Assembly (NCBI GenBank): GCA_026196575.1
Contig: JAPHSX010000039.1
Coordinates: 1 to 58,976 of the forward strand
Source of the DNA: Gammaproteobacteria bacterium
GTDB taxonomy: Bacteria > Pseudomonadota > Gammaproteobacteria > Thiohalomonadales > Thiohalomonadaceae
Reading direction: 5' to 3'
DNA length: 58,976 nt
The notes beneath the pieces were generated by a model. That model ran no database searches and had not been told where the DNA came from. It saw nothing but the letters and a program-made list of their open reading frames with translations. Shown one piece after another: positions 5,554-45,893 of the stretch (the first letter of the stretch is position 1; each line of letters opens with the position of its first letter). The position numbers and the translations under genes are program-made.

Positions 5554-6210
5554 TTACCGGTTTCCCGCCTGCTGTTCAGCCACCTGGGCCAGAAATTCAC
5601 GCTTGCGCTCGGTGACCCAGTTGAAGATCAGCAGCAGCAGGCCGAGGGTGAGAAAGCCGCCGGGGGGGAGGATCATGATCACCCACGGCTCGAAGTGATC
5701 GCCAAACAGGGCGAGGCCGAAGAGCTTCCCCTCACCGAGGATTTCGCGCACCGAACCGAGGGCAAAGAGGGCAAGCATGAAGCCGCTGGCCATGCCGATG
5801 GCATCCATCAGCGCGAACTTCACGGTATGTTTGGAGGCGAAGGCCTCCTGGCGGCCGAGGATCATGCAGTTGGCGACGATGAGCGGGAGGAAGGCGCCCA
5901 ACTCCTTGTGTGCCGCCGGCAGCAGCGCCAGCAGGGTGTAGTCGGCCACGGTGACGAAGGTGGCGATGATGATCACATAGACCGAGATCCGCACCGGCCT
6001 GGGGATCCACTGGCGCAGTGCGGAGACCAGAAGGCTGGAGCCCACCAGCACGAAGAAGGTGGCCAGCCCCATCACCACGGCGTTAAACGCCGAGTTGGTG
6101 ACGGCCAGCATCGGACACATCCCCAGCACCTGCACGAAGACCGGGTTGTCGCGCCACAGTCCCTTGAGCAGCTCGTCGTAGGCCGTTGGTTTATTTGAGT
6201 GTGTTGCCAT
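5554..6210 (-). CDS. rnfE: Rnf electron transport complex subunit E
   Basis: Inner-membrane subunit homologous to NqrD, inverted-topology partner of RnfA around the intramembrane Fe centre. The 218-residue product has six predicted helices. The LGMCPMLAVTNSA block near 29-41 and PLIVANCMILGRQEAF near 109-124 hold the conserved cysteines. The start overlaps the 3' end of rnfG by 20 nt, consistent with translational coupling. The last about 20 residues are polar (TERKREF...), as expected for a cytoplasmic tail. Confidence 0.95.
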   Translation of the reverse strand: MATHSNKPTAYDELLKGLWRDNPVFVQVLGMCPMLAVTNSAFNAVVMGLATFFVLVGSSLLVSALRQWIPRPVRISVYVIIIATFVTVADYTLLALLPAAHKELGAFLPLIVANCMILGRQEAFASKHTVKFALMDAIGMASGFMLALFALGSVREILGEGKLFGLALFGDHFEPWVIMILPPGGFLTLGLLLLIFNWVTERKREFLAQVAEQQAGNR

Positions 6211-6877
6211 GGTTCACTCTCTCAATCTGTTTCTCAAGGGCAGGTGGCGTGCCAGACAATTTTTCGCCCCAAAAGGCATGTGCCTCGTTCATGATCCGTA
6301 CCACCGCCTTGGAGGAGATGGTGGCCCCGGTGATGGCATCGATCTCGTTCTCCCTGGCCTTGGTGCCCCTCTTTACCGCGATGATCTGCGGCTCCATCAC
6401 CAGGTCGTCGAAGTTGGCGACGAAGGCCGCATCCTTGTAGATCTTGTCGCCAAGACCGGGTGTCTCGCGGGAGTCGAGGATCCACATCCCCACCATCTTG
6501 CGCGCCGCCGGATCATAACCGTAGAGCACGCTGATGGTGTCCTGGAAGCCGGGCCCAGCATTGGCAATGGCGTAGCCGATGAAGCGCCCCTCGGCATCAT
6601 AACCGCCATAGAGGGTGTTCTCATCGTCCCTGGCGTCAGCGGGCAGCACTACCAGCGTCTTGCCATCGAAGCGCAGTTTCTGCATCTGCGTCACCCCCGG
6701 CAGCACGCGGAACACCGCCTCACGCAGCTCGCGCGCCTTGTTCGCGGCGATGGTGTCGAAGGTGGCCAGGTAGATGGTGATGAGGATGAGACCGGAGATG
6801 AAACCGGCAATGCTCAGCGTCGCCACCAGGGTGGCGGAGCCGGGTTCTTTTTCCATCATTGGCAGTTGCGTACTCAT
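6191..6877 (-). CDS. rnfG: Rnf electron transport complex subunit G (covalent FMN)
   Basis: The 228-residue start at 6877 is chosen because its ATG overlaps the rnfD stop as ATGA; a longer reading to 7039 lies wholly inside rnfD in another frame. There is one N-terminal transmembrane helix (about 16-38), and the rest is a periplasmic FMN-binding domain. The flavinylation motif is DAITGATISS at 180-189, so FMN should be attached to T186. RnfG relays electrons on the outer face of the membrane between RnfD and the other subunits. Confidence 0.95.
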   Translation of the reverse strand: MSTQLPMMEKEPGSATLVATLSIAGFISGLILITIYLATFDTIAANKARELREAVFRVLPGVTQMQKLRFDGKTLVVLPADARDDENTLYGGYDAEGRFIGYAIANAGPGFQDTISVLYGYDPAARKMVGMWILDSRETPGLGDKIYKDAAFVANFDDLVMEPQIIAVKRGTKARENEIDAITGATISSKAVVRIMNEAHAFWGEKLSGTPPALEKQIERVNHGNTLK

Positions 6878-7896
6878 TTTGCCACCTTGCCCCTGCCGAA
6901 TACCCGCGGCTGGCTCCAGCGATCGATGAGTGGGGTGGCGGCGTTCATCAGCAGGATGGCGTACATCATCCCCTCGGGGAATCCGCCGAAGACCCTGATC
7001 AGCACAACGAGGAAACCGATGCCGATGGCGAAGAGCCACGTCCCCTTTGGCGTTACCGGCGAGGTGACCGGATCGGTCGCCATAAAGAGTGCCCCCAGCA
7101 ACATGCCGCCGGAGAGGAGGGTGAAGGGGGCCGAGGGGTAGCGCCCGGGGTCTACCCCATAGAGGATGGCGGAGAAGAGGGCGGCGCTAAGGAAGATCCC
7201 CGCCGGAACGCGCCAGTCGAGGCCACGGCGCAGAAGCAGGTAGAGACCGCCCAGCAACAGCAGCAGGGCGCTGGTCTCGCCCAGCGAACCACCGGTGTTG
7301 CCGATAAGCAGATCCCACAGCGGTGTGGCCTGCTGCTCGAACTTCATCTGCCCCAACGGGGTGGCGGCGGAGAGGGCATCGACTGGCGGCGCCTGCATGA
7401 AGGGGGCGGCGAGGTTGCTGACGTGCACGGTGAAAAACTGTGCTGGCCCCTGCTGTACCGTCCAGGTGGTCATGGCGATGGGGAAGGTGGCGAGGAGGAA
7501 GGCGCGCCCCACCAGCGCCGGATTAAATAGGTTGGCCCCGAGGCCGCCCCAGATGAGTTTGCCGATGCCGATCGCCACTACGCCGCCAACAAAGGCCATC
7601 CACAGCGGCAGCGCCGGGGGCAGGGTGAGCCCCAGCAGCAGCCCGGTCAGTGCCGCGCTGTTGTCGCGCAGGGTGACGACGCGCCTCTCCCTCGGGGTGA
7701 AGGCCCACTCGGTCAGCACCGCCCCGGCGATGGCGGCAAGCAGCACCAGCAGCGCGGCCAGGCCGAAGTACCAGAGGGCACCCAGGGTGGCCGGCAACAG
7801 CGCCAGCCAGACGTCGCGCATCGCCGTCGGGGTAGTCAACCCCTGACGCAGTAGCGGGGCCGGTTGCAGCAGCAGTTTGGGTTCGTTTTTCTTCAT
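6874..7896 (-). CDS. rnfD: Rnf electron transport complex subunit D (covalent FMN)
   Basis: NqrB-like inner-membrane subunit of 340 residues with about ten helices. The start at 7896 (MKKNEPKLLL) fits the family; the upstream extension to 7965 would read through the tandem repeats. The likely FMN site is DALSAATPL (T179), a slightly altered form of the usual SGAT motif (second position Ala instead of Gly). RnfD is the main ion-translocation candidate. It is separated from rnfC by about 236 nt filled by 78-bp tandem repeats, unusual inside an rnf operon. Confidence 0.94.
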   Translation of the reverse strand: MKKNEPKLLLQPAPLLRQGLTTPTAMRDVWLALLPATLGALWYFGLAALLVLLAAIAGAVLTEWAFTPRERRVVTLRDNSAALTGLLLGLTLPPALPLWMAFVGGVVAIGIGKLIWGGLGANLFNPALVGRAFLLATFPIAMTTWTVQQGPAQFFTVHVSNLAAPFMQAPPVDALSAATPLGQMKFEQQATPLWDLLIGNTGGSLGETSALLLLLGGLYLLLRRGLDWRVPAGIFLSAALFSAILYGVDPGRYPSAPFTLLSGGMLLGALFMATDPVTSPVTPKGTWLFAIGIGFLVVLIRVFGGFPEGMMYAILLMNAATPLIDRWSQPRVFGRGKVAK

Positions 7897-7913
7897 AAAC
7901 CTGTCATATAGTT

Positions 7914-8129
7914 TTGTGGGAGCGGCGTCTCGCCGCGAAATCGGCCCGAGACGGGCCTTCCACATTCAGTTCGAAATCATCTCATATCGTCTTGTGGGAG
8001 CGGCGTTTCGCCGCGAAATCGGCCCGAGACGGGCCTCCCACATTCAGTTCGAAATCATCTCATATCGTCTTGTGGGAGTGGCGTCTCGCCGCGAAATCGG
8101 CCCGAGACGGGCCTCCCACATTCAGTTCG
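7914..8129. repeat. Tandem repeat, 78-bp unit, about 2.8 copies, each with REP-like dyad
   Basis: Copies begin at 7914, 7992 and 8070 (exact period 78) and differ at only a few bases. The third stops near 8129. Each copy starts TTGTGGGAGCGGCGT and contains nested inverted repeats: TGTGGGAG with CTCCCACA, GCGGCG with CGCCGC, and GGCCCG with CGGGCC. This is the same style as the GTGGGAGCGG REP elements of pseudomonads. The unit is a multiple of three, which creates an artefactual open frame. It fills the rnfC-rnfD gap and would fold into serial hairpins in the transcript. Confidence 0.93.
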
Positions 8130-39329: not shown

Positions 39330-39363
39330 TTATCGACCCTCCGAACTTCGGAATTTATTGAGA

Positions 39364-39386
39364 TGGGGGAGAGCTGCTCTCCCCCA
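39364..39386 (-). terminator. Perfect palindrome downstream of dsrC
   Basis: A 23-nt hairpin with arms TGGGGGAGAGC and GCTCTCCCCCA around one base, 12 nt beyond the dsrC stop. No long T-run follows. It probably protects or terminates part of the transcript, keeping dsrC message abundant over the downstream genes. Confidence 0.72.
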
Positions 39387-39397
39387 ACACAAACAGC

Positions 39398-39733
39398 TTA
39401 GATACAACCGGTCGGCTTGGGCAGACCCGCGATCTTACAGGCCTGCTTGGCAGGACCGTAGGGGAACAGCTCATACAGGTACTTGCTGTTGCCCTTCTCC
39501 TTACCCAGCTTCTTGCCGATAGCCTTGGTGAGAACGCGAACGGCGGGGGCGATTTGATACTCGTCGTAATACTCGCGCAGGAAATCGATAACCTCCCAGT
39601 GAGATTCGGTCATATCAACCTTTTCGCTCTTGGCCAGCTCTTCACCCACTTCACGATTCCACTGTGACAGGTCGATGAGGTATCCCTCTTCGTCTACTTC
39701 GTAGTCTTTACCATTAACGGTCATTGTAGCCAT
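39398..39733 (-). CDS. dsrC: DsrC, sulfur-carrier substrate protein
   Basis: 111 residues. The C-terminal swinging arm has both conserved cysteines, C99 and the penultimate C110 (QACKIAGLPKPTGCI). It receives sulfur from DsrEFH, is presented to DsrAB as a persulfide/trisulfide and is regenerated by DsrMK. It lies between dsrH and dsrM as in the classical order. A cysteine-less paralogue is encoded 6 kb away at 45501. Confidence 0.97.
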   Translation of the reverse strand: MATMTVNGKDYEVDEEGYLIDLSQWNREVGEELAKSEKVDMTESHWEVIDFLREYYDEYQIAPAVRVLTKAIGKKLGKEKGNSKYLYELFPYGPAKQACKIAGLPKPTGCI

Positions 39734-42066: not shown

Positions 42067-43305
42067 TTATGCTTGACGCTCAGCCCACTTGGCGGCTTCT
42101 TCATCCCAGCCGTCCATGCGGACGTAGGAGTTCATGCGCGGCTGGCTGATCATGTTGGGGTCAACCTCGACGCCGATCCCCTCCAGGAAGTTAACCAGGC
42201 CGATACGCTCGATCATCTCACCGGTACGCTCGTGCTCCAGGGCGTTTTCGGCAAAGAAGTCGATCATCTCGCCAGCCAGCTCCTCAATGGCCTCGAAGTC
42301 GTCATCATCCTCCAGCTTCATGAAGGGGACGATCACGGTGCCCATCAGATCGCCGATCTTCAGGGTACGCTTGCCGCCGACGAGGATGCTGGCACCCTTG
42401 TCATCACCGGGTGACAGGGCCTTGTTCATCACGTTGAGGCAGTGCATACAACGCACACAGGCCTTGTTGTCAACGTCGAGGGTGTCGTCGTCGTTGAGGC
42501 TCAGGGCACTGGTCGGGCAGCGGGTGATAACGTTGTCAACAACGTACTTGCGACCCTTGCTGGCAACGAAGGCCTTTACCTCATCCTGATCTACCTTCAT
42601 CGCATCACGCCAGGTGCCGATAATAGCCATGTCGGCACGGTGAATGGAGTTCATGCAGTCATTGGCGCAACCGGATACCTTGAACTTGAACTTGTAGGGC
42701 AGGGCCGGGCGGTGCATGTCGTCGAGGAAGGCATTAACCAGGGTGCGGTGTACGCGCTGCTCGTCGATGCAAGACTGCTCGCAACGGGCGGCACCCACAC
42801 AGCTCATGCCGGTACGCACGGCCGGGCCGGCGCCGCCGAGGTCAAAGCCCATCTCGTTCAGTTCGTCAAAGGCGGGCTGTACATTGGCGGTGGTGCACCC
42901 CTGGAACATGATGTCGCCAGACTGGCCGTGGAAGGCAATCAGGCCAGAACCATACTTTTCCCAGACATCACAGAATTGACGCATGATGTCGGTGGTGTAG
43001 TGGTTGCCGGCAGGCGGCATGATACGCAGGGTGTGGAACTCGGCCGCATCCGGGAAGATCGGCTTGTGGTTGTCATCCATCAGTTCGGTGAAGCGGGGAA
43101 TAACGCCACCGCCGTAACCGATTACGCCAACGGTACCCCCCTTCCAGTAACCTTTTTTGGTCTGGTAAGAGGTTTCCAGCTGACCCAGCAGGTCAACCAT
43201 CATGTCGTTGTCGTTAGCCAGACGCTTGAGGCCGGTAACAAAGCTCGGCCATGGGCCTGCTTCGAGCTGGTCAAGGTTGGGTGTATCGTGCATTTTTTTA
43301 GCCAT
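42067..43305 (-). CDS. dsrA: Dissimilatory (reverse-type) sulfite reductase alpha subunit
   Basis: 412 residues. Coupled sirohaem-[4Fe-4S] motifs are CVGAARCEQSC (near 174-184) and GCANDCMNS (near 216-224). The inserted ferredoxin domain includes CVRCMHCLNVMNK near 290. It is the first gene of the dsr run, and its 5' region of about 0.5 kb carries no convincing gene. Reverse (oxidative) type is inferred from the cluster content (dsrEFH, dsrL), not from residues in DsrA. Confidence 0.97.
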   Translation of the reverse strand: MAKKMHDTPNLDQLEAGPWPSFVTGLKRLANDNDMMVDLLGQLETSYQTKKGYWKGGTVGVIGYGGGVIPRFTELMDDNHKPIFPDAAEFHTLRIMPPAGNHYTTDIMRQFCDVWEKYGSGLIAFHGQSGDIMFQGCTTANVQPAFDELNEMGFDLGGAGPAVRTGMSCVGAARCEQSCIDEQRVHRTLVNAFLDDMHRPALPYKFKFKVSGCANDCMNSIHRADMAIIGTWRDAMKVDQDEVKAFVASKGRKYVVDNVITRCPTSALSLNDDDTLDVDNKACVRCMHCLNVMNKALSPGDDKGASILVGGKRTLKIGDLMGTVIVPFMKLEDDDDFEAIEELAGEMIDFFAENALEHERTGEMIERIGLVNFLEGIGVEVDPNMISQPRMNSYVRMDGWDEEAAKWAERQA

Positions 43306-43817
43306 TACTATTAACTCCCGTCAGACTTATGGGTTGTTGGCCGGCTCTGGTATCGAGCCAGGCCTTCCTAAGGCTGCAGGTACTGCAACAAATCCTGCAT
43401 GGATTGAAGAGGCACAAAGCGCGGCTCTCAATATGGCTCGAAAGTTTAGGAGTTCCTTATGGGCCACAAAACCTTTCTGATGGGGGGGGGGAGGGGGTGG
43501 CACATATCCCCAATGGGATATTCGGGTAAATGGCCACGAACCACACAGTCCCTCTGTCGTTGCCGTTTTCTTTAATATTTTCAGCGGGTTGCAGTCTGCA
43601 TTTGATGCAAGGCAGCGAACATGAACCATGGTTTTCGTCGGTAGGCAAGAAAATTAATATTTGATGATATTCCTCGTATGCGGCGATGGTGGCCGGTGAT
43701 ATGCAACTAACCCCATGTGTTATTATGCCGGCCATCACGTGGGCGAACAGGGCAGCTCTTGAATTACGCCCCGCCAACTCACATATGTTAGTGAATAATT
43801 ATACAGAGTGGCCGCAT
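43306..43817. other. Intergenic region between dsrA and the divergent small ORF
   Basis: About 510 nt with no supported gene. It contains a G10 tract at 43481-43490 followed by GAGGGGG, a TATCCC-CAAT-GGGATA hairpin near 43505-43520, nested dyads around 43589-43610 (TTGCA and TGCAA arms with TGCAT/ATGCA inside), and an AACCATGGTT palindrome near 43624-43633. The region should hold the dsr promoter and operator sites, but no clean -35/-10 pair could be named. Confidence 0.5.
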
Positions 43818-43994
43818 ATGTTGTATCTAAGCGAAGTATTGATTCAAAATCCCGAACTGCAGAATTTTGATGAGCTGATGGAGGTCATCAAGGTGCGTTC
43901 CAAATCGGAGATGTTTTTTCGCATTGATGTCAAACCCCCTTATCCGGATACCCCGGAGAACTGGGAGGATCGACTCGAGGCCGCTTTTACCTAA
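43818..43994 (+). CDS. Small hypothetical protein divergent from dsrA
   Basis: A 58-residue reading (MLYLSEVLIQNPELQNF...) with charged, helix-prone composition. The open frame extends upstream to 43686, so starts at 43785 or 43701 are possible; none has a strong ribosome site. No family recognised. It lies at the front of a plus-strand run that contains the Cas6-like and DsrC-like genes, 52 nt before the next start. The acidic and aromatic C-terminal end (YPDTPENWEDRLEAAF) looks like real protein. Confidence 0.45.
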   Translation: MLYLSEVLIQNPELQNFDELMEVIKVRSKSEMFFRIDVKPPYPDTPENWEDRLEAAFT

Positions 43995-44046: not shown

Positions 44047-44754
44047 GTGAAATATTTGGATAGCAATGACAACCTGGGCGATGCCGAGTGTTCCAATGAT
44101 GCAATTCAGTCCAGTGATCTGTTGACGCGCAAGCTGGCCGAACACGAGGCGGTGCTGCAGAGCGCCCGGGGGGCGAAGCGGATAAAACCCCTGCTGGATA
44201 GCGGGTATATCCTGCTCGATCTGGTAGGGCGCAAGCAGGAGGCGTGGGCATTAGCCAGGGAGGCCCTTGAGATCGCACTGGCAGAGGAGAACTGGCTTAG
44301 CGCCGTCGAGGCCTGTGACATCATCTATCAGGCGGAGCAGGAGGATGCGGTGTTGGCGCTGGCGCATGGCATCTGGCTGGGGGTTACCTACCCCATCGAC
44401 CCGGAGCTGAGTGTTGCCATGCTGCAACACCTGGTGGATGAGACCCCTCCCGATTCGGATGGTGCGGCGGTGGCGGCGGCCACCGCCGTCTATATCGTGG
44501 ATCTGCGTGCCGAGGGCACGCAGCGTGACGAGCTGGGGTTTTTCACCAACCAGATGATGGGGGCGGTGGCGCGTCGCCATACCAATGGTGCCTGTGACAC
44601 GCAGGAGCTGTTCGATATCTGGATTCAGCGCCTGGAGCTGAACGATCCCGCCAAGTTCCTCCCACGTTTGTCGAAGATCGTCGACATTCTGGTGCCGCAG
44701 GGGCAGTGGTGGTTTGACCGCGATGCACTGCGTGAGAAGATCCCGGCTCAGTGA
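44047..44754 (+). CDS. Conserved-looking hypothetical protein, helical repeat character
   Basis: 235 residues starting at GTG with GGGG upstream. No signal or membrane segment. Residues 35-120 have TPR-like helical periodicity (LLDSGYILLDLVGRKQEAWALA, here split in two motifs LLDSGYILLDL and GRKQEAWALAREALEIA). The rest is helical with a Trp-rich end (QGQWWFD). No family recognised. It is followed after 10 nt by the Cas6-like gene, so co-transcription is likely and it may be a protein partner of it. Confidence 0.65.
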   Translation: MKYLDSNDNLGDAECSNDAIQSSDLLTRKLAEHEAVLQSARGAKRIKPLLDSGYILLDLVGRKQEAWALAREALEIALAEENWLSAVEACDIIYQAEQEDAVLALAHGIWLGVTYPIDPELSVAMLQHLVDETPPDSDGAAVAAATAVYIVDLRAEGTQRDELGFFTNQMMGAVARRHTNGACDTQELFDIWIQRLELNDPAKFLPRLSKIVDILVPQGQWWFDRDALREKIPAQ

Positions 44755-44764
44755 GGTGACCCCG

Positions 44765-45433
44765 ATGCATTGGCAGGTTGATGAAGATGATGTTGACCAG
44801 TATGTGCTGCCGGATGATGTGGTCGATCTGCAATTCGCTATCGACTGCAAGACGCTGCCGGTGGATCACGCCTACCCCCTTTCGATGGCGATTCAACGCG
44901 CCTTGCCGTGGTTTGCCGAGGATGAAGTTGCGGCGCTGCACCTCATTCACGGCGCCGATTCGGGTAATGGTTGGGAGCGCCCCGAGGGGGCTGACGACCT
45001 TATCTATCTCTCGCGCCGCACCAAACTGACCCTGCGGCTGCCGGCGCAGCGGGTCGACGAGGCCCTGCTTCTTTGCGGCCAGACACTGGATGTGGAGGGC
45101 AGCTTGATCGCTGTGGGCGGGGCGACCCGTCGCCAGCTTAGCGTTACCACCTCACTCTATTCCCGCCATACGGTGGTGGCGCCAGGCGAGGATGAGGATG
45201 CCTTTCTGCGACGCACCATTGGCGAGATGCGCGCTATGGGGCTGCGTTTCGGCAAGGCCCTGTGCGGCAAGGAGCACCGTCTGGGTATCCCGGGGGGGGC
45301 GTTGATCACCCGCAGCCTGCTGATAGCCGATCTCAAATTTGATGACGCGGTTACATTGCAGCAGCGTGGTGTGGGCGCAAAGGCGTACAAGAAACTGGGT
45401 TGTGGCCTGTTCATTGCGCACAAGACTGTTTAA
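44765..45433 (+). CDS. Cas6/Cmx6-like RAMP protein, stand-alone
   Basis: 222 residues resembling proteins annotated as type I-MYXAN Cas6/Cmx6: an N-terminal VVDLQFAIDCKTLPVDHAYPL block, a middle region with HLIHGADSGNGW and LSRRTKLTLRLP, and a C-terminal glycine-rich element with GCGLFIAHK near the end. Cas6 proteins cut CRISPR precursor RNA, but no repeat array and no other cas gene is in the 59-kb window. The gene sits between a hypothetical protein and a DsrC-like gene, in a run divergent from dsrA, which suggests a non-CRISPR RNA role in sulfur metabolism. Family match is from memory of conserved blocks. Confidence 0.68.
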   Translation: MHWQVDEDDVDQYVLPDDVVDLQFAIDCKTLPVDHAYPLSMAIQRALPWFAEDEVAALHLIHGADSGNGWERPEGADDLIYLSRRTKLTLRLPAQRVDEALLLCGQTLDVEGSLIAVGGATRRQLSVTTSLYSRHTVVAPGEDEDAFLRRTIGEMRAMGLRFGKALCGKEHRLGIPGGALITRSLLIADLKFDDAVTLQQRGVGAKAYKKLGCGLFIAHKTV

Positions 45434-45500
45434 AATGCCGCCGATATTTCAGTTTTTAACCAACCAGTAATCAACGTAGATTATAAGTAAGGAGCTACCC

Positions 45501-45839
45501 ATGGGTTATGAAGTAAATGGTACCACCCTCGAAACCAACGAAAAGGGCTATCTGGTTAACCTTGATGAGTGGAATGAAGAGGTCGCCCAAGTGATCGCTG
45601 CCGCGGAAGGCGTTGTGTTGACCGAGAAGTCATGGGATGTGATCAACTTCCTGCGCGATGAGTACATTAATAACAACGGTACCCAGCCCAATGATCGCAA
45701 CATCGTCAAGGCGATGTCCGACAAGTGGGGCGAGAGTGTCAGCAGCAAGGATATCTACAACCTCTTTCCGATGCAGCCCTCCAAACAGGCCGCCAAGATT
45801 GGTGGCCTGCCCGAGAGCCGCCGTAAGGGCGGTTACTAA
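45501..45839 (+). CDS. DsrC/TusE-family protein lacking both redox cysteines (RspA-like)
   Basis: 112 residues starting after a strong AAGGAG site (about 7 nt upstream). The fold matches DsrC (NGTTLETNEKGYLVNLDEWNEE and FLRDEYINNNGTQPNDR). At the DsrC Cys99 position there is Ala (QAAKIGG, A98), and the penultimate residue is Gly; there are no cysteines in the C-terminal arm. Such members of the family have been called RspA and proposed to be regulatory. It cannot carry sulfur as DsrC does. It is followed by a strong rho-independent terminator. Confidence 0.9.
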   Translation: MGYEVNGTTLETNEKGYLVNLDEWNEEVAQVIAAAEGVVLTEKSWDVINFLRDEYINNNGTQPNDRNIVKAMSDKWGESVSSKDIYNLFPMQPSKQAAKIGGLPESRRKGGY

Positions 45840-45865
45840 CAGCCCTGATATTGGTAGTGTTGAGA

Positions 45866-45893
45866 AGGCCCGCGTAGCGGGCCTTTGCTTTTC
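45866..45893 (+). terminator. Rho-independent terminator after the DsrC-like gene
   Basis: AAGGCCCGC (45866-45874) pairs with GCGGGCCTT (45878-45886) around GTA, followed by a T-rich tail. It ends the unit containing the Cas6-like and DsrC-like genes. Confidence 0.9.

Follow-up and report, generated by a model that had tools for sequence, protein, structure and literature searches.

A protein of the Cas6/Cmx6 family is a CRISPR-independent, near-obligate companion of the oxidative dsr genes in Gammaproteobacteria. The protein family is known; its setting and its sequence signatures are new. Its conserved gene block adjoins dsr, and the protein is near-universal in the Dsr-bearing Gammaproteobacteria sampled and often occurs without CRISPR, which suggests that a part of a CRISPR system has been taken over for sulfur metabolism. 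The database label "CRISPR-associated Cas6/Cmx6" hides this near-obligate partner of oxidative Dsr, and a Cas6/Cmx6 annotation alone is a poor ground for calling a genome CRISPR-bearing. The open-access literature searched yielded no account of this Cas6–dsr link, an absence that carries little weight given that scope; the Cas6 passages of PMC5944118, PMC5728499, PMC7540712 and PMC8889020 concern CRISPR systems.

The gene run divergent from dsrA

The stretch of DNA analysed here (58,976 nt; the window) carries dsrA, B, E, F, H, C, M and K, assigned by homology and order, and shares the usual order of these genes with the rDsr cluster (dsrABEFHCMKLJOPNRS). The dsrA gene is on the minus strand (42067–43305; TIGR02064, 563 bits). 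Divergent from it is a plus-strand run that comprises, in order, a 58-aa ORF ("orf65", 43818–43994), a 235-aa gene (44047–44754), cas6 (44765–45433; 222 aa from an ATG start, identified by Pfam and NCBIfam profiles) and rspA (45501–45839). The first-pass annotation had placed genes for a 235-residue protein, a Cas6-like protein and an RspA-like protein in one plus-strand run, with dsrA divergent and a terminator at the end. These three genes and their arrangement were borne out, but the conserved 58-aa ORF had been overlooked. The run does appear to be closed: 3′ of rspA, folding gives a 10-bp G+C-rich hairpin with a T-rich tail (45864–45886, plus strand; ten pairs, with −21.1 kcal/mol for a 56-nt stretch), a probable terminator that was not listed by a simple terminator pattern scan. 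No description of the divergent tauD-orf65-cas6-rspA block turned up in the papers searched, and the account of the Allochromatium vinosum dsr cluster in PMC3368242 does not include it.

From its sequence, the ORF at 44765–45433 can be assigned firmly to the Cas6/Cmx6 family. Its product matches Pfam PF09559 (E 6e-54; 183.3 bits against a cut-off of 26.7), TIGR02807 (110.2 bits against a cut-off of 98.85) and six PADLOC Cas6 models, and has a solved homologue in a type I-B Cas6 (8fcj, E 8e-22). With the type I-MYXAN and I-B Cas6/Cmx6 proteins it shares the profile, His35, Arg91 and the glycine loop. The residues conserved in the window protein are His35, Arg85, Arg91, the glycine loop at 212–214 and Lys220. 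When 110 dsr-linked Cas6 proteins were aligned, Arg85, Arg91 and Gly214 were each found in 110/110, and Gly212 and Lys220 each in 109/110. His35 was present in 108/110, as well as in all seven CRISPR-linked proteins; the exceptions have Tyr (L163) and, as aligned, Asn (L129). By its position, His35 would be the catalytic histidine.

The CRISPR-linked comparison set consisted of seven Cas6 proteins of the same family from cyanobacterial plasmids, and in 6/7 of these plasmid loci cas6 is adjoined by cas3, cas8, cas7 and cas5. Compared with CRISPR Cas6/Cmx6, the dsr-linked proteins mostly keep Arg134 and Gln199, but they are acidic, have invariants of their own, form a separate clade and, in the case of the window, are accompanied by neither an array nor a cas operon. 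In a tree, a branch with 99% support set the gammaproteobacterial dsr-linked proteins to one side and the CRISPR-linked proteins to another. The peculiar invariants are Arg85 and Lys220, to which the gammaproteobacterial proteins add an insertion with Trp70; these dsr-specific invariants and the insertion (SGNGWxRP) lie outside the positions conserved by CRISPR Cas6. The difference in charge is marked, with a median pI of 5.85 and a net charge of −6 for the dsr-linked proteins (pI 5.6 for the window Cas6) against 9.39 and +7 for the CRISPR-linked proteins. A basic character, which is typical although not strictly defining of Cas6/Cmx6, is therefore absent from the window Cas6, and this acidity argues against an ordinary Cas6-like grip on RNA. 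As judged from the alignments, the active-site pattern of the dsr-linked proteins is under selection whilst the usual basic character has been lost. The data pull in two directions here more than anywhere else, and for this reason our confidence in RNA cutting stays below one half.

A phage origin was rejected, with no match among 50,697 phage records. On a Gloeobacter morelensis plasmid (L107), a Cmx6-annotated protein (5974–6765) has no further cas gene annotated nearby and is flanked by genes for a PAPS reductase-family protein, a cupin and hypothetical proteins.

The gene downstream of cas6 encodes an RspA, which we take to be the name for cysteine-less members of the DsrC family. The window RspA shares the profile of the DsrC/TusE/RspA family (PF04358, TIGR03342) across nearly its whole length (E 3e-33; 115 bits against a cut-off of 24.9) and contains zero cysteines. 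The window also encodes a true DsrC (39398–39733, minus strand) with both C-terminal cysteines. In contrast, both relay cysteines of RspA are replaced, including the penultimate, sulfur-carrying one, the C-terminus is a conserved RKGGY (a GGY end is found in 21/21 aligned RspA rows), and the gene adjoins cas6 rather than lying in the dsr operon. The sequence marks the window RspA as a member of the DsrC family that is not a sulfur relay protein: with no cysteine and an RKGGY end, it cannot pass on sulfur in the manner of DsrC.

Amongst the best 80 of at least 486 relatives found with the Cas6 alignment, the gene most consistently upstream of cas6 is the 58-aa ORF (75/80). It encodes a conserved small protein modelled with three helices (AlphaFold pLDDT 92.8), for which we found no Pfam or NCBIfam match and, in a fold search, no meaningful PDB match. 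The 235-aa gene is present in 52 of the same 80. Its product had no match in family profile searches, Pfam TPR included, whilst its AlphaFold model (pLDDT 92.3) has 11 helices. The best structural match to the model reached Z 14.0 at 4.4 Å over 169 residues, a score to be read with the generally high scores of helical bundles in mind, and TPR-type folds were amongst the best matches. As the protein is modelled confidently as all-helical and TPR-like, it is likely to be a scaffold. Like Cas6, the proteins encoded by the rest of the run (orf65, the 235-aa gene and rspA) are acidic. Finally, a TauD-like dioxygenase gene is found in 44 of these best 80 relatives, usually between dsrA and the 58-aa ORF, but is missing from the window. 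The TauD-like neighbours match the TauD/TfdA profile (PF02668; 2e-25 for L081, 8859–9791, and 1e-17 for L096) but fall well short of the thresholds that NCBIfam sets for its named enzymes.

Co-occurrence of cas6 with dsrA, independently of CRISPR

In an initial search, 26 of 56 relatives proved to have one Cas6 of the family, and tblastn of the flanks recovered the same block in most of them. When 84,980 species genomes were then scanned with the Cas6 alignment, at least 486 relatives were confirmed. By name, the best 80 of these at least 486 are gammaproteobacterial sulfur oxidisers or Proteobacteria/Gammaproteobacteria bins; 73 of the 80 have RspA and 66 have dsrA. Co-occurrence was determined in 274 evenly drawn Gammaproteobacteria, with few genomes per family. 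Cas6 and dsrA were found together in 87 genomes, Cas6 only in 4, dsrA only in 7 and neither in 176 (Fisher p 2e-57, to be taken as a rough guide since the genomes are related). In at least 8 of the 11 exceptions, the contig runs out at the place expected for the partner gene. In all four genomes with Cas6 only, the edge lies upstream of cas6 or tauD, at the expected position of dsrA. In four of those with dsrA only (G142, G129, G225 and G089), the contig breaks inside orf65 or no more than ~0.7 kb upstream of dsrA; the other three (G098, G229 and G256) have dsrA as cut fragments.

Where both genes occur, they are less than 8 kb apart in 65/87 genomes (median gap 1.7 kb), on separate contigs in 21/87 and, in G128, on a single contig with 41 kb between them. 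A survey of dsr genomes for this linkage had been proposed in the first-pass annotation, and its outcome is a strongly conserved association. Since the cas6 block is conserved across dozens of genera, the association is not due to chance. In a phylum-wide draw, 4/4 further Gammaproteobacteria with a more distant dsrA had Cas6 near dsrA, and Cas6 was found in 0/48 dsrA genomes from other classes. Three genomes of only 1.0–1.1 Mb have tauD-orf65-cas6-rspA adjoining dsrA, and no Cas1. In L160–L163 the gene order is altered and the partners of cas6 are still together.

In loci that resemble those of alphaproteobacteria (class inferred), tauD and the 58-aa ORF adjoin dsrA in 4/5, and a small ORF, of ~72 aa in two, takes the place of cas6 in 4/5. 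Since these rDsr loci manage without Cas6, the chemistry itself does not depend on it. Amongst such loci, a cysG-like siroheme synthase gene comes next in three of L150–L153. In loci of the Beggiatoa/Thioploca/Thiomargarita type (L044, L064, L072, L079 and L095), the available stretch carries the orf65-cas6 pair only, with no rspA or dsr.

The array scan, which covered the window, found no CRISPR-like array in its 59 kb, as had been noted at first pass, and an Rfam search of the window gave no match. In the window genome, which is 100% complete by its label, we found no Cas1, no DevR/Cas7 and no PF10040 Cas6, whilst a Cas3 search returned solely sub-cut-off helicase matches. Of the two findings that the first-pass annotation had named as counting against it, neither was made: a complete type I CRISPR system lacking its own Cas6 was not found elsewhere in the genome, and linkage to dsr is conserved. 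More widely, Cas1 is absent from 49/91 Cas6 genomes, the window genome amongst them, and present in 42/91; the association between Cas6 and Cas1 is weak (p 0.06 in the draw of 274). As a separate observation, a 78-nt unit that contains inverted repeats occurs three times in tandem at positions 7892–8125 of the window, an arrangement that is not a CRISPR array.

Candidate RNA and DNA sites in the dsr cluster

The spacer between dsrC and dsrM (39330–39397, minus strand) contains two hairpins, one of which lies at 39364–39386 (minus strand; spacer z −2.8). In many gammaproteobacteria with Cas6 the pairing is kept whilst the sequence changes freely, and there is no T run. However, the presence of the hairpin does not match that of Cas6. 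Cas6 occurs without it, with a spacer of 33–43 nt, in the reduced genomes L176 and L177 and in L160 and L163 (betaproteobacteria-like, class inferred), and a strong hairpin occurs without Cas6 in L150, L153 and L154 (alphaproteobacteria-like, class inferred). We therefore rejected the hairpin as a Cas6 substrate; since it does not track Cas6, a role as target is disfavoured. This goes against the earlier proposal that Cas6 processes a hairpin after dsrC. The broader proposal, in which Cas6 and a DsrC-fold partner act on sulfur-gene transcripts, fared better in that the dsr link and the cysteine-less DsrC-family neighbour both held, whilst the dsrC hairpin as target did not. The cas6–rspA spacer was also rejected as a structured RNA, as its length and fold vary among genomes (z 0.1 in the window). 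Across the spacers and regions compared (dsrC–dsrM, cas6–rspA and upstream of dsrA), no conserved RNA hairpin that tracks Cas6 was found.

The region upstream of dsrA contains three conserved boxes: a palindrome, TATCCCnnnnGGGATA (43505–43520), which is a putative operator; a second box, CCCCATnGGnAGGnT (43470–43485, minus strand); and a third of the type CTAAACTT (43442–43459, minus strand), which might be the −10 element of dsrA. A pattern scan listed no promoter-like site. In the window the boxes span 43442–43520, and they mostly lie 160–320 bp from dsrA. With at most one mismatch, the palindrome TATCCCnnnnGGGATA is found in 55/99 loci, compared with 1/1,980 shuffled sequences, and it is the sole zero-mismatch site in its own genome. 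On this sequence evidence it is likely to be a dsr operator. An RNA hairpin was considered for the same palindrome and rejected: wobbles favour the dsrA sense only mildly (28 versus 11, with 32 other mismatches), the site is located 5′ of the presumed dsrA promoter, and the Cas6 genomes L137, L138, L162 and L163 lack it. According to PMC5944118, A. vinosum DsrC binds DNA upstream of dsr, which by analogy makes RspA a candidate binder of TATCCCnnnnGGGATA. We regard this as a lead only, as some genomes with RspA lack the palindrome.

Possible roles of the Cas6 block

The explanation that we favour, at slightly less than an even chance, is that a Cas6-fold protein has been domesticated to serve oxidative Dsr and probably acts on RNA together with RspA. 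In Gammaproteobacteria, a Cas6-family protein would have departed from CRISPR immunity and taken up a permanent place beside the reverse (oxidative) Dsr pathway. Its gene shares one run with those of a small helical protein and of RspA, and often with that of a TauD-like Fe(II)/2-oxoglutarate dioxygenase and, in some lineages, that of a presumed TPR-like scaffold. Cas6 would bind, and probably cut, a specific RNA, and RspA, unable to relay sulfur, might couple this action to the status of Dsr. We are a shade more tentative about the fuller form of this idea, namely a near-universal, CRISPR-independent ribonuclease module of gammaproteobacterial sulfur oxidisers, in which the domesticated Cas6 and a DsrC-family sensor would adjust RNA in step with Dsr.

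The leading alternative, unlikely but deserving real weight, is that the protein keeps the Cas6 fold and is no longer an RNA enzyme, serving instead as a scaffold or protein-binding subunit that works with RspA, the small helical protein and sometimes the TPR-like protein on dsr transcription or Dsr assembly. The change from basic to acidic charge, shared with the orf65 product, the 235-aa protein and RspA, fits such a role, as do the dsr-specific invariants and the SGNGWxRP insertion outside the positions conserved in CRISPR Cas6, and the operator-like conserved palindrome between the two gene runs. However, nearly all sequences retain the histidine of CRISPR Cas6, Arg91 and the glycine loop, which would be unexpected had RNA binding or cleavage been lost everywhere. 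The block could instead be a tRNA module, in which RspA, as a relative of TusE, and the Cas6-like protein steer or limit tRNA thiolation, or cut tRNA, when Dsr claims the sulfur relay. In Escherichia coli, TusE meets MnmA on tRNA. The kinship of DsrEFH–DsrC with TusBCD–TusE (PMC3397948) and an RspA without relay cysteines are consistent with this, and two Cas6 genes away from dsr lie beside RNA genes, that of L132 (4983–5645) beside rnc/era-like genes and that of L127 (4956–5648) beside an rlmB-like methylase gene, the names being read from sequence. These neighbours may be due to chance, however, and there is no direct sign of a tRNA function; we consider it improbable.

More doubtful still is a reading along the lines of the first-pass annotation, that Cas6 cuts hairpins in dsr transcripts, chiefly after dsrC, and so sets transcript ratios. 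A strong dsrC–dsrM hairpin with pairing kept despite sequence change, and with no T run, in many Cas6 genomes would suit it, as would the promoter reported for dsrC itself and transcript levels above those of dsrA (PMC3368242, PMC3397948); the mismatch between hairpin and Cas6 described above and the unconserved hairpin sequence argue the other way. Close to refuted is a role as a surplus or relict enzyme that processes pre-crRNA for CRISPR arrays in trans. Whilst the protein is a Cas6 by profile and 42/91 Cas6 genomes do have Cas1, the other 49, including that of the window, do not, the gene is dsr-linked in most genomes, and the association with Cas1 (p 0.06) does not compare with that with dsrA (p 2e-57).

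If the Cas6–Dsr link is functional, the block, which even the smallest genomes of sulfur oxidisers sampled retain, would supply a piece so far missing from a well-studied energy pathway and be a clean case of a CRISPR component moved into housekeeping. Were domestication for action on RNA to be true, it would add an unrecognised layer of control to sulfur lithotrophy and give a Cas6 a housekeeping metabolic role. Both dsr regulation and the role of RspA become testable in a genetic host such as A. vinosum, given a confirmed copy of the block there. The window genome itself has eight DsrC-family matches (contigs C27, C31, C46, C52, C59 and C64). A. vinosum has four extra DsrC-family genes, of which Alvin_1508 falls with dsrAB on pyrite whilst the three others rise (PMC11267869).
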